Under the pieces are notes generated by a model that ran no database searches, was not told where the DNA came from, and saw nothing but the letters and a program-made list of their open reading frames with translations. Shown here piece after piece: positions 1-3,557 of a DNA stretch of 64,000 nt. The stretch lies in NCBI GenBank assembly GCA_027037535.1, contig JALVZQ010000008.1:1-64000 (forward strand), in the 5' to 3' direction. Made by a program: the position numbers and the translations under genes. The DNA comes from Acidilobaceae archaeon. Its GTDB lineage: Archaea > Thermoproteota > Thermoprotei_A > Sulfolobales > Acidilobaceae. The stretch's first letter is position 1. The number at the start of each line of letters is the position of its first letter.

Positions 1-20
1 ATTCCGCACACAAGTATTTA

Positions 21-1433
21 GTTAAAAACAAGCAAAACTAAGAGTATAAGTGTGGTCCCTCTTTTGTTTATACTTGTATAAAGTTAAAAACAAGCAAAAC
101 TAAGAGCTGAGTGCCTCACAGCTAGGGGGAAGGATTAATGCCGCACCGCAAGTTAAAAACAAGCAAAACTAAGAGTTATCCTAGGGTCTGATACAATATG
201 TGGGTATGGAGTTAAAAACAAGCAAAACTAAGAGATACCGAGTTTTGCTAGGTATCCCGTAACCTGTTAAAAACAAGCAAAACTAAGAGAGAAATGTGTA
301 TATCTATCCCCTATCAACGCCAAGTTAAAAACAAGCAAAACTAAGAGAGGATGGCTGTGCAGGGGCAGGAGAGTGTTAGGCGTGTTAAAAACAAGCAAAA
401 CTAAGAGGCTTAGAGAAGAAGGCTAGGCTGAAACGCGCTTATCACGCGTTAAAAACAAGCAAAACTAAGAGTTAGGCGTGGCGTGGCACGTGTATGCGGT
501 ACCGCGTTAAAAACAAGCAAAACTAAGAGACACATACTATAACGAGGAGGCCACATACCTAGGGTTAAAAACAAGCAAAACTAAGAGCCGAGGACTTGGT
601 ATTCGGTATACACATATCGAGTTAAAAACAAGCAAAACTAAGAGTTATCACCACCTACTATAATATATGTATATTAAGAGTTAAAAACAAGCAAAACTAA
701 GAGACTACGAAGAAGGAGGAGAAGCCCTATTCAAATGGCTAGTTAAAAACAAGCAAAACTAAGAGACTTCCCAATCTAGTGGGTAGTCTGTTACTTCGTT
801 AAAAACAAGCAAAACTAAGAGACGCCACCAGGACCACCCCCTAGAAACTATAGTTAAAAACAAGCAAAACTAAGAGCTGTTACTGTCGCGTTGCCCTCTA
901 TAGCGAACGCTATAGGTATATCATGTTAAAAACAAGCAAAACAAAGAGATTCACCCCTGCGCATTTTTACACTTAACCCGTTAAAAACAAGCAAAACAAA
1001 GAGCGTGTATATGGCGCCTATAAGAAATGGGCGCATTACTGGTTAAAAACAAGCAAAACAAAGAGAGGAGCTTTCTAAGATATTCCAGCTCCTCCCTGTC
1101 ATGTTAAAAACAAGCAAAACAAAGAGTATATGCTATGAGCGGACTCATACTGATGTGGTTAAGCTACTAGTTAAAAACAAGCAAAACAAAGAGAGTACTA
1201 CCATGTGGGCATACTCATACAAGTCCTGTTAAAAACAAGCAAAACAAAGAGTGGTAGCGAGTGTGAGTAGGAAGGATAGGAATCGTTAAAAACAAGAAAA
1301 ACAAAGAGGTAATAATATAGGTCTTGTTATCCCTATAGTGCATATTATGTTAAAAACAAGAAAAACAAAGAGATACTCTAGGCTCTTATTCCCCATATTA
1401 TGCACCCTTGTTAAAATCAAGCAAAACATAAAG
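21..1433 (+). CRISPR. CRISPR array, trailer end, 24 repeats
   Basis: Twenty-four 24-base repeats begin GTTAAAAAC and end AACTAAGAG. They start at 21, 83, 152, 211, 266, 324, 384, 448, 506, 564, 621, 680, 742, 798, 853, 925, 980, 1042, 1103, 1170, 1228, 1285, 1349 and 1410, and the 23 spacers are 31-48 bases long. Repeats 1-15 are identical. Repeats 16-21 change the end to AACAAAGAG. Repeats 22-23 also change AAGCAAAAC to AAGAAAAAC. Repeat 24 (1410-1433) is clearly degenerate. Decay towards the right marks that side as the trailer, so the leader and probably the cas genes lie left of the window and transcription runs left to right. The expected 8-nt 5' handle of the crRNAs would be ACTAAGAG or ACAAAGAG, resembling the handles of crenarchaeal type I-A/III systems. 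The array is cut by the window edge. No cas gene is present here. Confidence 0.98.
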
Positions 1434-1837
1434 TTGAAGCAGTATATACCGCTTTCGTAATAGTGGACGGTGTACCCTTCATAGCCCGAGCATACAAGGA
1501 AGAGAATAGGATACAGGAAGAGGTACAAGCCCGGAAAGCATGGTCATCCAAAAATATAATACCTCTACGTAAAGCCCGCCGCGGAGCGTGGAAAGGCGGT
1601 CAAACAAAATATTGCCAGGGATAATAGTGATTGCGGAGCACTATGCTATGTAATCAACAGGCTACTAGAAGAAGCGAACACACTCATAATGTTCAACAAG
1701 AAAACACGGTTCTGGGTGCGGAAGAAAATACTCGGGGCGACTAGACTACTTGACAAAGCCGGAGACCAAACGAAAATAACATGTGGAAAATATGGGCTAT
1801 GGAGAATCTAGTACTGGGTATTCATAGGTGTAAATAG
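1434..1837 (+). pseudogene. decayed coding stretch after the CRISPR array
   Basis: There is no intact gene here. One frame is open from the last repeat to a stop at about 1618 and reads like protein (a segment EAVYTAFVIVDGVPFIAR), but it lacks a convincing start. A second frame is open from about 1558 to 1811 (a segment ALCYVINRLLEEANTLIMFN) and also has no start codon. The two frames overlap, as expected for a frameshifted or truncated gene. I do not recognise the family. It may be the remains of a mobile-element or viral gene. Confidence 0.35.
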
Positions 1838-2272
1838 TTGGTTGATAAGAGGGGACAATGCAGGGTTAGATATCCTGGCTACCGAGTATTTGACCATGCA
1901 GTAAGCATATTGCGTGAACTTTACCCAGACGACCTGATAAGATGGAAGGGTGGTGGCAGAGCACAGGTTGACCAGGCAATAGCTGCTGCGAGATGGTCTT
2001 TCCAATTCTCAAAGAATAAACCATGTTACTCTAGGAAACTAGCTGCTGCAGCTGCACTCTTTTACGAGATAATAATGCTGCATCCTCTGATAGATGGAAA
2101 CAAGAGATTGGCGACAATCATGCTATGGATATTCCTCAAGGCTAACAGGCTTCCCCGCCCGAGAAATATTGCTGACGCGGCCCTGCGAGTTGCCGTGGGA
2201 GAATGGAGTCAAGAAGACGTCTACAAATGGCTACTAAGGGTATACCGAGCCCATAGGACTAGGCAGAAGTAG
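1838..2272 (+). CDS. Fic/Doc-family protein (probable toxin or AMP/phosphotransferase)
   Basis: This 144-residue protein has the Fic/Doc active-site motif HPLIDGNKR at about residues 81-89, followed by LATIMLWIFLKANRLP, which is typical of death-on-curing (Doc) proteins. Fic/Doc enzymes move AMP, UMP or phosphate onto target proteins, and bacterial Doc phosphorylates EF-Tu. The catalytic His and the DGN(K)R anion-binding loop are present. The usual Phe at the third motif position is Leu, as in many Doc proteins. The start is uncertain: the first in-frame codon after a stop is TTG at 1838, and no in-frame ATG lies near the N-terminus. No Phd-like antitoxin lies upstream. A small ORF overlaps the 3' end on the other strand. 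The location beside CRISPR remnants suggests accessory DNA. Confidence 0.85.
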   Translation: MVDKRGQCRVRYPGYRVFDHAVSILRELYPDDLIRWKGGGRAQVDQAIAAARWSFQFSKNKPCYSRKLAAAAALFYEIIMLHPLIDGNKRLATIMLWIFLKANRLPRPRNIADAALRVAVGEWSQEDVYKWLLRVYRAHRTRQK

Positions 2273-2387
2273 GTTGCCTAGCCTTAGCCTTCAGATCGTT
2301 CTCTCTAAGATAATCAAGCTGGGGCTTAAGCTCTCTTACAGCCTCTTCAAGAAGCTTATTCCAGTCAACTTTCTTCTTACTAGTCAC
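2259..2387 (-). CDS. small basic/acidic helical ORF, convergent with the Fic gene
   Basis: This is a 42-codon ORF starting with GTG at 2387. It predicts a charged, helix-prone peptide containing VDWNKLLEEAVRELK and ending KARQPTSA. It overlaps the last 14 bases of the Fic gene tail to tail. A TATA-like AT-rich site (about 2424-2430, read on the minus strand) lies 37-43 bases ahead. A GAGGTG stretch abuts the start and is too close for a normal Shine-Dalgarno site. It could encode an antitoxin for the Fic protein or be a chance ORF. The composition favours a real peptide, but I recognise no family. Confidence 0.35.
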   Translation of the reverse strand: MTSKKKVDWNKLLEEAVRELKPQLDYLRENDLKAKARQPTSA

Positions 2388-2553
2388 ACCTCAATCCCAT
2401 ACCAAAATAGCCAGTATCACAACTATTAAGGCTTAGTGGTGATCCTCTTCCATCAACATGAATAAGAGAACCTGCAGGTATCTCAAATTATAATGCCTCG
2501 TCAATGCCGCTCCCGCTGCTTCTCAAGCTTTAGCACTAGTGAAACTGCTACAA

Positions 2554-2578
2554 GTAAAAAAACAAGCAAAACTAAGAG
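2554..2578 (+). repeat. orphan CRISPR repeat copy
   Basis: This 25-base sequence is a copy of the array repeat 1.1 kb beyond the array end and in the same orientation. Its last 21 bases are identical to the repeat version found in repeats 1-15 (ending AACTAAGAG). Only the first bases differ: GTAAAAAAAC here against GTTAAAAAC in the array. It therefore matches the leader-proximal repeat type, not the degenerate types at the adjacent trailer end. The Cas6 cleavage region near the 3' end is intact, so a transcript could in principle be processed into a crRNA-like RNA carrying the bases after 2578 as guide. Confidence 0.9.
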
Positions 2579-2705
2579 TAGACGTGCTAATAGCGGTTAG
2601 GGCGTAGATGGCTGATGCTATACTTGTGACAACGGATTGAGTTCTGGCCAGGTTCTACATGAATATAGCCTCGGGTAGAGCTGCAAGAGCTAATAGTTGC
2701 CAACC

Positions 2706-2715
2706 GATAATATAC
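2706..2715 (+). promoter_or_regulatory. TATA box for leaderless ORF at 2736
   Basis: ATAATATACA lies about 25 bases ahead of the GTG at 2736. This is the spacing expected if transcription starts at or within a base or two of the start codon. The ATG at 2731 is followed at once by a stop in its frame, so GTG 2736 is the supported start. Confidence 0.5.
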
Positions 2716-2735
2716 ATACCGGTTAGGCTGATGGG

Positions 2736-2996
2736 GTGACTGGTGTAGGTTATACTCTCGACTATGACGAGCTAGAGGAGCTCGGGAAGAAGAGGACCAA
2801 CAAGTTCTTCTACCTATACTTCAAAGCAGCAAAGAAATATCCCAAGAAGGCAGAGAAGATTCGCCGAGACTTCATAAAAGACAAGATAACCTATGAGGAA
2901 GCCATCAAGAAGTTGAGAGAGTTAAAAATAAGAAAAACAAAGAGGCAGACATATACAACAGAGAGATCCAAATCTACAAATGAAAAAGGAGAATGA
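2736..2996 (+). CDS. small Lys-rich protein with a CRISPR repeat inside its gene
   Basis: This 86-residue, strongly basic protein belongs to no family I recognise. Residues about 15-62 are predicted helical and match a second small ORF at 3207-3425. Shared positions include the pattern D-x3-K/G-K-I/L-T-Y-x-E-A-x-K-K-L-x-E-L. The GTG start is supported by a well-placed TATA box and no leader. Codons for Glu-Leu-Lys-Ile-Arg-Lys-Thr-Lys-Arg (2919-2945) contain a 24-base CRISPR repeat with one mismatch. After it, the C-terminus becomes low-complexity (TYTTERSKSTNEKGE). The homologous ORF has codons of similar meaning but different sequence at this place. Function is unknown. Confidence 0.6.
   Translation: MTGVGYTLDYDELEELGKKRTNKFFYLYFKAAKKYPKKAEKIRRDFIKDKITYEEAIKKLRELKIRKTKRQTYTTERSKSTNEKGE
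2921..2944 (+). repeat. CRISPR repeat embedded in coding sequence
   Basis: This 24-base sequence, starting GTTAAAAAT and ending AACAAAGAG, differs at a single position (C to T at base 9) from array repeats 22 and 23 (1285-1308, 1349-1372). It includes the AAGAAAAAC change that is unique to those two repeats. It is in the same orientation as the array and lies inside the 2736-2996 reading frame, reading Leu-Lys-Ile-Arg-Lys-Thr-Lys. Even in A-rich Lys codons, 23 of 24 matches so near the array is not plausibly chance. Confidence 0.92.
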
Positions 2997-3046: not shown

Positions 3047-3313
3047 TTGACTACGTATTTTGGAGTGTTCTTGTTGGGTTGCCTAGGCTTGGCCGTATTC
3101 ATAGGCTGCTGGGATACAGATATTTACTGGCGCGGGACAGGTTCATGTGGCGACACGCATATTACTTCGGCCTCATATACGTTAACTGGAAGACTCACAG
3201 AGGTAGATGTCCTTGCTCCAGAAGAAGCCACTCCACAAATGGACAAGCCAGGACCTCAGAAAATGGCGAGAGAGACTCAGCAACCTCATACTCCTCGCAT
3301 ACGAGACAAGTGA
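3047..3313 (+). CDS. possible small membrane protein overlapping the next ORF
   Basis: This 88-codon ORF starts with TTG at the predicted transcription start. Its N-terminus (about residues 3-20, YFGVFLLGCLGLAVFIGC) is a clear hydrophobic segment, followed by a polar region. From 3207 it overlaps, in another frame, the Lys-rich ORF that has a paralogue, so at most one frame is under strong selection there. The N-terminal half looks protein-like; the C-terminal part may be accidental. A third frame (3040-3510) is also open and is probably a by-product of base composition. Confidence 0.3.
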   Translation: MTTYFGVFLLGCLGLAVFIGCWDTDIYWRGTGSCGDTHITSASYTLTGRLTEVDVLAPEEATPQMDKPGPQKMARETQQPHTPRIRDK

Positions 3314-3425
3314 AAAAACGAAAGCAAGAAACATCATCGAAGACTATAAGAAAGGCAAACTCACATACCGCGAGGCGGAGAAGAAGCTCAAGGAGCTCGC
3401 CAGCAAAACCAAAGCAAAAGCCTAA
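3207..3425 (+). CDS. small Lys-rich protein, paralogue of the 2736 ORF
   Basis: This 72-residue basic protein ends KKLKELASKTKAKA. Its second half aligns with residues 24-67 of the ORF at 2736-2996 (both have K-x-T-Y-x-E-A-x-K-K-L-K/R-E-L and a Lys/Thr-rich tail). It starts at ATG with GAGGT two bases ahead, which is closer than usual. The tail codons (gcc agc aaa acc aaa) keep an AGCAAAAC core shared with the CRISPR repeat but otherwise diverge. After the stop, the next frame stays open (GIGAAGLASGGFLSPVV) and may be a fragment of another gene. Function unknown. Confidence 0.5.
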   Translation: MSLLQKKPLHKWTSQDLRKWRERLSNLILLAYETSEKTKARNIIEDYKKGKLTYREAEKKLKELASKTKAKA

Positions 3426-3557
3426 GAGTAACGCTGCTAGGCATAGGGGCCGCAGGCCTAGCAAGCGGCGGCTTTCTCTCTCCGGTAGTGGATACCTTCA
3501 ATATACTTAATGGTGGGTTCGCGGACTACCTGTTTGTATTTAGTTTTATTATTGATG

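Follow-up and report, generated by a model that had tools for sequence, protein, structure and literature searches.

The window, meaning the whole stretch of 64,000 nucleotides that was analysed, opens inside a CRISPR array. Beyond the terminal repeat of this array lie two further copies of the repeat, set among the remains of toxin–antitoxin-type genes, and the second copy is read through in frame by a small open reading frame. The features of the locus are the following, with positions counted from the first letter of the window.

21–1433, forward strand: end of a CRISPR array, 24 repeats of 24 nt (GTTAAAAACAAGCAAAACTAAGAG), with the leader outside the window
1434–2554, no strand assigned: first oversized insert, 1121 nt, between the terminal repeat and the first stray repeat
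1838–2272, forward strand: Fic/Doc-family toxin-like ORF with an HPLIDGNKR motif, inside the first insert (Pfam PF02661, E 8.7e-8)
2555–2578, forward strand: first stray CRISPR repeat (24 nt), which agrees with the consensus throughout its last 21 bases; missed in the original prediction
2579–2920, forward strand: second oversized insert, 342 nt, flanked by the two stray repeats and holding the C-terminal third of a toxin gene and the N-terminal 62 codons of an antitoxin-like gene
2581–2739, forward strand: what is left of a PIN (VapC-like) toxin gene, interrupted by two in-frame stops, with a translated match to locus L108 of genome G167
2736–2996, forward strand: antitoxin-like ORF of 86 codons, family A1
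2921–2944, forward strand: second stray CRISPR repeat, fused in frame to the ORF; putative Cas6 cut between 2936 and 2937 if the repeat is recognised
3107–3220, forward strand: C-terminal remnant of a second PIN toxin (..ARDRFMWRHAYYFGLIYVNWKTHRGRCPC; PIN-B profile, E 5e-17)
3207–3425, forward strand: antitoxin-like paralogue of 72 codons, with its own stop and without a repeat

The orientation of the array was taken from the C2 and C3 arrays of the same genome, which have the same repeat type and are both preceded by a conserved leader. Towards the distal end the repeats change to variants with CAAAGAG and then with GAAAAACAAAGAG, before the degenerate terminal repeat at 1410–1433. The contig itself (C8) begins inside the array (window 1–106), and spacers are common to this beginning, to the end of the C2 contig (L009 13940–14062) and to the C3 array (L010 ~5660–5550), so that joins among the arrays may be assembly-dependent; the region of the window after about 850 is unaffected.

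The second stray repeat (GTTAAAAATAAGAAAAACAAAGAG) runs in the same direction as the array and differs from the consensus at three positions, from repeats 16–21 at two, from the terminal repeat 24 at five and from repeats 22–23 at one only, namely position 9 (C to T), while their private A at position 13 is in common. The ORF, which starts with GTG, translates it as (GA)G TTA AAA ATA AGA AAA ACA AAG AG(G), that is residues E62-L-K-I-R-K-T-K-R70. The original prediction, that a CRISPR repeat lies here inside a protein-coding gene, is confirmed by the 23/24 match, the shared orientation, the in-frame reading and the rarity of such matches. Under an order-3 Markov model of the genome's own DNA, sites within one mismatch of repeats 22–23 are expected 3.6e-7 times per 64 kb and 9e-6 times per 1.65 Mb, and random back-translation of the encoded nine-residue peptide reaches 23/24 in 6e-4 of trials. 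A genome-wide search with up to three mismatches returned 91 sites, all within arrays except four (C2:115073, C3:204697, C8:2555 and C8:2921), the only copies outside arrays, each of them close to an array and in array orientation; the reversed pattern gave no match anywhere in the genome. The fourth stray repeat of the genome, with a one-base deletion (L009 9074–9097), stands amid structured-looking DNA between the first and second C2 arrays, at distances of 4.3 and 3.6 kb, respectively.

The ORF belongs to a family (A1) of small helical proteins of about 60–85 residues, present in 41 of the 214 genomes searched in the order, many of whose members come after a PIN-domain gene, with the toxin first and the small protein second. 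This arrangement is retained in the window, where the stop of the PIN remnant (TGA, 2737–2739) overlaps the GTG start of the ORF. The remnant shows 47% identity to the G167 locus over insert nt 3–155, and the second PIN remnant 80% DNA identity to contig C7 of G021, a Thermodiscus metagenome-assembled genome (MAG). As regards the toxin side, the array-linked PIN partner in G021 gave an AlphaFold model with pLDDT 88 and VapC toxins as best PDB matches (E 2.5e-4); the predicted structure of this relative fits the VapC/PIN fold, the window holding only C-terminal remnants. The small protein has neither a Pfam match above cut-off nor a PDB sequence relative, and the fold search was uninformative; membership of a known antitoxin family has no support from these three sources, and the protein is called antitoxin-like by gene position only. 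The ORF is a real gene, with a dead toxin partner.

Comparison with homologues indicates how the gene came by its present end. The G013 homologue ends in ..LRELAR-stop and the G021 homologue in ..LRELAARAKA-stop, neither with a repeat, whereas the window ORF reads LREL and then enters the repeat. The relatives' genes thus end at least two residues beyond the point at which the repeat starts, which bears out the suggestion that the repeat was copied into the tail, the 3′ end of the gene having received the repeat from elsewhere rather than produced it by drift. Since the antitoxin-like gene is cut at least two codons before its stop, the frame continues across the repeat and acquires a foreign tail. 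In the AlphaFold model residues 10–65 form ordered helices and residues 66–86 are disordered, the disordered part beginning just past the repeat start and comprising repeat-encoded residues and those beyond; the product may be an orphan antitoxin with a disordered tail.

The borders of the 342-nt insert are exact. It is enclosed by two repeats of the local type, both oriented alike; PIN homology begins 2 nt past the repeat at 2555–2578 and antitoxin homology ends 0 nt before 2921, which by the border test applied to SiL-E1 (see below) leaves no unaccounted bases between homology and repeats. Repeats of the local type likewise flank the inserts at the other array ends described below (C3, G021:C7, G021:C116, G065 and G167). 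In a 193-nt insert of G065 homology covers nt 1–192 of 193, and in the 1102-nt insert at the C3 array it leaves no base uncovered at the distal border. For the first insert of the window, DNA homologues of the Fic/Doc-like ORF exist in G013:C38 and G021:C112, and the first ~400 nt of the insert (1434–2554) gave no homologue.

The same layout recurs at other arrays and in other genera. At the G000:C3 array end of the same genome, the terminal repeat is followed by the 1102-nt insert, an exact stray repeat and a 237-nt insert with an antitoxin-like gene, the longer insert carrying a membrane ORF, a PIN-like gene, a small protein and a second membrane ORF truncated by the stray repeat. A possible degenerate repeat (18/24; L010 3460–3437, minus strand) would close the 237-nt insert directly past its small-protein gene. 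G021 possesses two arrays of two repeat types, with related modules in opposite orientations, each flanked by repeats of its own type: a 1706-nt insert and an exact stray repeat at C7, and an 875-nt insert with the module reversed at C116. Three inserts, measuring 277, 129 and 193 nt, occur at the array end of G065:C38, and one ordinary spacer of 46 nt lies among them. Those of 277 and 193 nt consist of antitoxin-like genes, each of which has its stop codon inside a repeat. In G167, which belongs to another family, a Fic/Doc gene occupies a 1145-nt gap between repeats, as in the window at 1433–2555. Past the terminal repeat of the C2 array of the present genome, a RelE-like ORF recognised by eye follows immediately (L009 4817–5183; Pfam gave no match), and its possible truncated partner reads out of the repeat.

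Among the small-protein loci examined, 14 of 51 lie within 2.5 kb of an array and one between 2.5 and 8 kb; 13 of the 14 are on the trailer side, an orientation that the shared leader confirms for this genome's repeat type only and that elsewhere was read from the repeat motif. When the loci that seeded the profile are left out, nine of 44 are within 2.5 kb, eight of them on the trailer side. The tail probability of this proximity is 2e-7 to 3e-4 if 2–5% is expected by chance, an expectation estimated from array number and length and not measured. Most of the array-linked homologous ORFs have a 3′ end without a repeat. Oversized inserts are not a universal feature of array ends, given that nine other ends (in G004, G011, G021 and G043) have none, nor any toxin–antitoxin gene obvious by eye downstream.

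The reading that probably accounts best for these observations is that 2555–2944 is a fossil distal array end with an oversized spacer, a 342-bp toxin–antitoxin piece captured exactly between two repeats. The piece, made up of the end of a PIN gene and most of the antitoxin-like gene after it, would have come to lie exactly between two repeats, with a cut at least two codons before the antitoxin stop, so that the distal repeat came to supply codons 62–70 and the frame to continue for 16 codons past it. It may have entered as spacers do, by Cas1–Cas2-type end joining with duplication of the repeat but with unusually long DNA. Spacer acquisition places arbitrary DNA exactly between two full repeats, and insertion of long DNA of the Cas1 type is therefore favoured; a Cas1 gene adjoins the C3 array. 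Spacer acquisition normally obeys a size rule that the oversized inserts break, and capture is proposed here from sequence. The order of the repeat variants along the window, old, degenerate, modern (2555) and old again (2921), follows no simple age gradient and counts against capture at the array end. The fusion of gene and repeat is most likely a by-product; should Cas6 recognise the old repeat, cleavage of the ORF mRNA close to its 3′ end would follow. Such cargo could persist at array ends if toxin–antitoxin genes are costly to lose or if lone antitoxins are harmless or useful, and its retention at the tail plausibly reflects selection.

As to the source of the cargo, nt 37–1095 of the 1102-nt C3 insert are collinear with a region of G072 judged by eye to resemble a mobile genetic element (MGE), with membrane proteins, a protease and DNA-binding proteins. 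In G072 the last membrane gene has its full length of 121 aa, whereas in C3 the repeat interrupts it after about 68 residues. An ordinary spacer of the window array, spacer 2 (107–151), matches at 43/45 a segment (L114 1508–1552) of this MGE-like region, which contains the PIN/small-protein/membrane cassette as well; at this site the expected CCN PAM is not apparent. The G072 comparison would fit capture of mobile DNA at both ordinary and oversized length. For the window insert itself (2579–2920), matches were found only to toxin–antitoxin homologues, and a mobile origin is suggested solely for the C3 relative. In G000:C3 and G021:C7 the breakpoints in the membrane gene are only a few codons apart, a closeness that inheritance or a hot border would explain as readily as independent capture.

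The main rival to Cas1-type insertion is recombination followed by decay, in which mobile DNA bearing toxin–antitoxin genes inserted in or beside the array end and was later pared by deletions with one end at a repeat, so that stray repeats came to abut truncated genes. Crenarchaeal CRISPR loci do sit in variable regions where toxin–antitoxin genes cluster (PMC4390879), the genes of the window are visibly decayed and array ends are degenerate. Random deletions, however, should leave scraps of spacers. For the window insert and the 193-nt G065 insert alike, homology stops 0–2 nt short of a repeat on either side, and for the C3 insert it includes the final base before the distal repeat; moreover, one genome has the module at arrays of two repeat types, in each case enclosed by repeats of the type concerned. 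This explanation is considered unlikely. A solitary repeat brought in by a virus or plasmid was also considered and rejected: viral contigs gave no homologue of the small protein or the PIN toxin, a phage search with the PIN toxin and the window DNA was negative, as was a plasmid search with the small protein, and the MGE-like region of G072 has no copy among seven repeat types tested (best, eight mismatches).

Far less probable is a regulatory role, whether through a crRNA-like RNA from a stray repeat that controls its neighbour in the manner of CreA/CreTA, or through Cas6 cleavage of the antitoxin mRNA that would make its level Cas6-dependent. The setting recalls CreTA, where stray repeats stand beside toxin–antitoxin genes (PMC8501985, PMC9458426); the genome has two Cas6 candidates, both below cut-off, and the 8-nt handle of the second stray repeat (ACAAAGAG) is that of repeats 16–23. 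By the rule of an 8-nt 5′ handle, from which the cut position was deduced, the stray repeats 2555–2578 and 2921–2944 have predicted handles ACTAAGAG and ACAAAGAG, starting at 2571 and 2937, respectively. Against this role, a seed scan on the CreTA criterion, in which pseudo-spacer nt 1–5 and 7–11 pair with a promoter next to a PAM, gave a best local seed of 8–9 of 12 for the two pseudo-spacers, compared with 10–11 in shuffled spacers, and a CreA-like guide was rejected on this ground. The idea of a mini-CRISPR with the downstream coding sequence as its guide is not supported by the same scan, and no second repeat follows 2921–2944 at spacer distance. Of the fusions in the window and G065, the stop codon precedes the expected Cas6 cut in one and follows it in two, with the window frame reading through, and this variation leaves no conserved regulatory design visible; most homologues, in addition, are without a repeat. 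Finally, the proposal that chance or codon convergence gave a lysine-rich tail resembling the A-rich repeat is rejected in view of the Markov and back-translation values above, the stray repeat 342 nt upstream and a junction of the same kind in another genus.

The closest precedent is SiL-E1, a 1.9-kb plasmid-derived pseudo-spacer in CRISPR_2 of Sulfolobus islandicus LAL14/1, for which the authors judged illegitimate recombination unlikely by the same border argument (PMC3718332). The window insert at 2579–2920 agrees with SiL-E1 in layout and borders. SiL-E1 is, however, one case in one strain, with conjugative-plasmid genes and further spacers after it, whereas the present ones are found repeatedly, at array ends and in several genera, with toxin–antitoxin cargo that is often decayed and with some repeat–gene fusions. 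Literature searches yielded SiL-E1 as the only comparable oversized spacer, and the recurrent toxin–antitoxin cargo and the gene–repeat fusions appear new relative to it. CreTA resembles the present loci in having stray repeats outside the array beside a toxin–antitoxin-like locus, but in that system the toxin (CreT) is itself an RNA and the seed of the guide RNA CreA is complementary to the creT promoter (PMC8501985, PMC9458426), while the toxin and antitoxin here are protein genes and gave no seed match. PIN toxins with small partner proteins are also linked to CRISPR regions in the VapBC modules near Sulfolobales CRISPR-cas loci, which were proposed to help maintain these systems (PMC4390879). 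The present modules differ in lying between the array's own repeats, in having the toxin before the small protein and in a partner that matches no antitoxin family above cut-off.

Chromosomal superintegrons carry toxin–antitoxin cassettes, and by analogy such cargo inside a repeat-based array could stabilise the array, although the arrays considered here have neither integrase nor attC sites. More tentatively, the arrays of these archaea may be partly integron-like: the adaptation machinery would occasionally insert kilobase DNA, toxin–antitoxin or antitoxin-only cargo would be kept at the tail and anchor or protect the array, and some antitoxin genes would be fused to a repeat, with Cas6 trimming their mRNA as it processes the array transcript. 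The observations suggest that genes, and not short memory fragments alone, can be acquired or retained by CRISPR arrays. Given the recurring layout, the exact borders and the nature of the cargo, it becomes testable whether Cas1–Cas2 is able to integrate DNA of kilobase size in vivo and whether toxin–antitoxin genes stabilise CRISPR arrays, and the genes with CRISPR-repeat 3′ ends form a ready-made set for testing the action of Cas6 on mRNA.

Two minor features accompany these loci. A C/D-box sRNA-like gene, with a weak Rfam snoPyro_CD match below the gathering score, makes up the insert of 129 nt in G065, where it lies between repeats; in G011:C8 it borders the array end, and its core recurs in G021:C116 as an ordinary spacer of 41 nt. 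Near small-protein genes it is present in four non-array loci as well (coordinates and loci for this gene: L092 3547–3419, L135 1656–1806, L141 7838–7798, L117, L113, L122 and L123). The other is a stretch of ~28–30 nt (AAAGCCTAAGAGTAACGCTGCTAGGCA) with 93% DNA identity between window 3416–3443 and L010 3490–3461, situated 3′ of two otherwise diverged small-protein genes; it contains a possible hairpin (GCCTA..TAGGC), and its TAAGAG resembles the end of the repeat.
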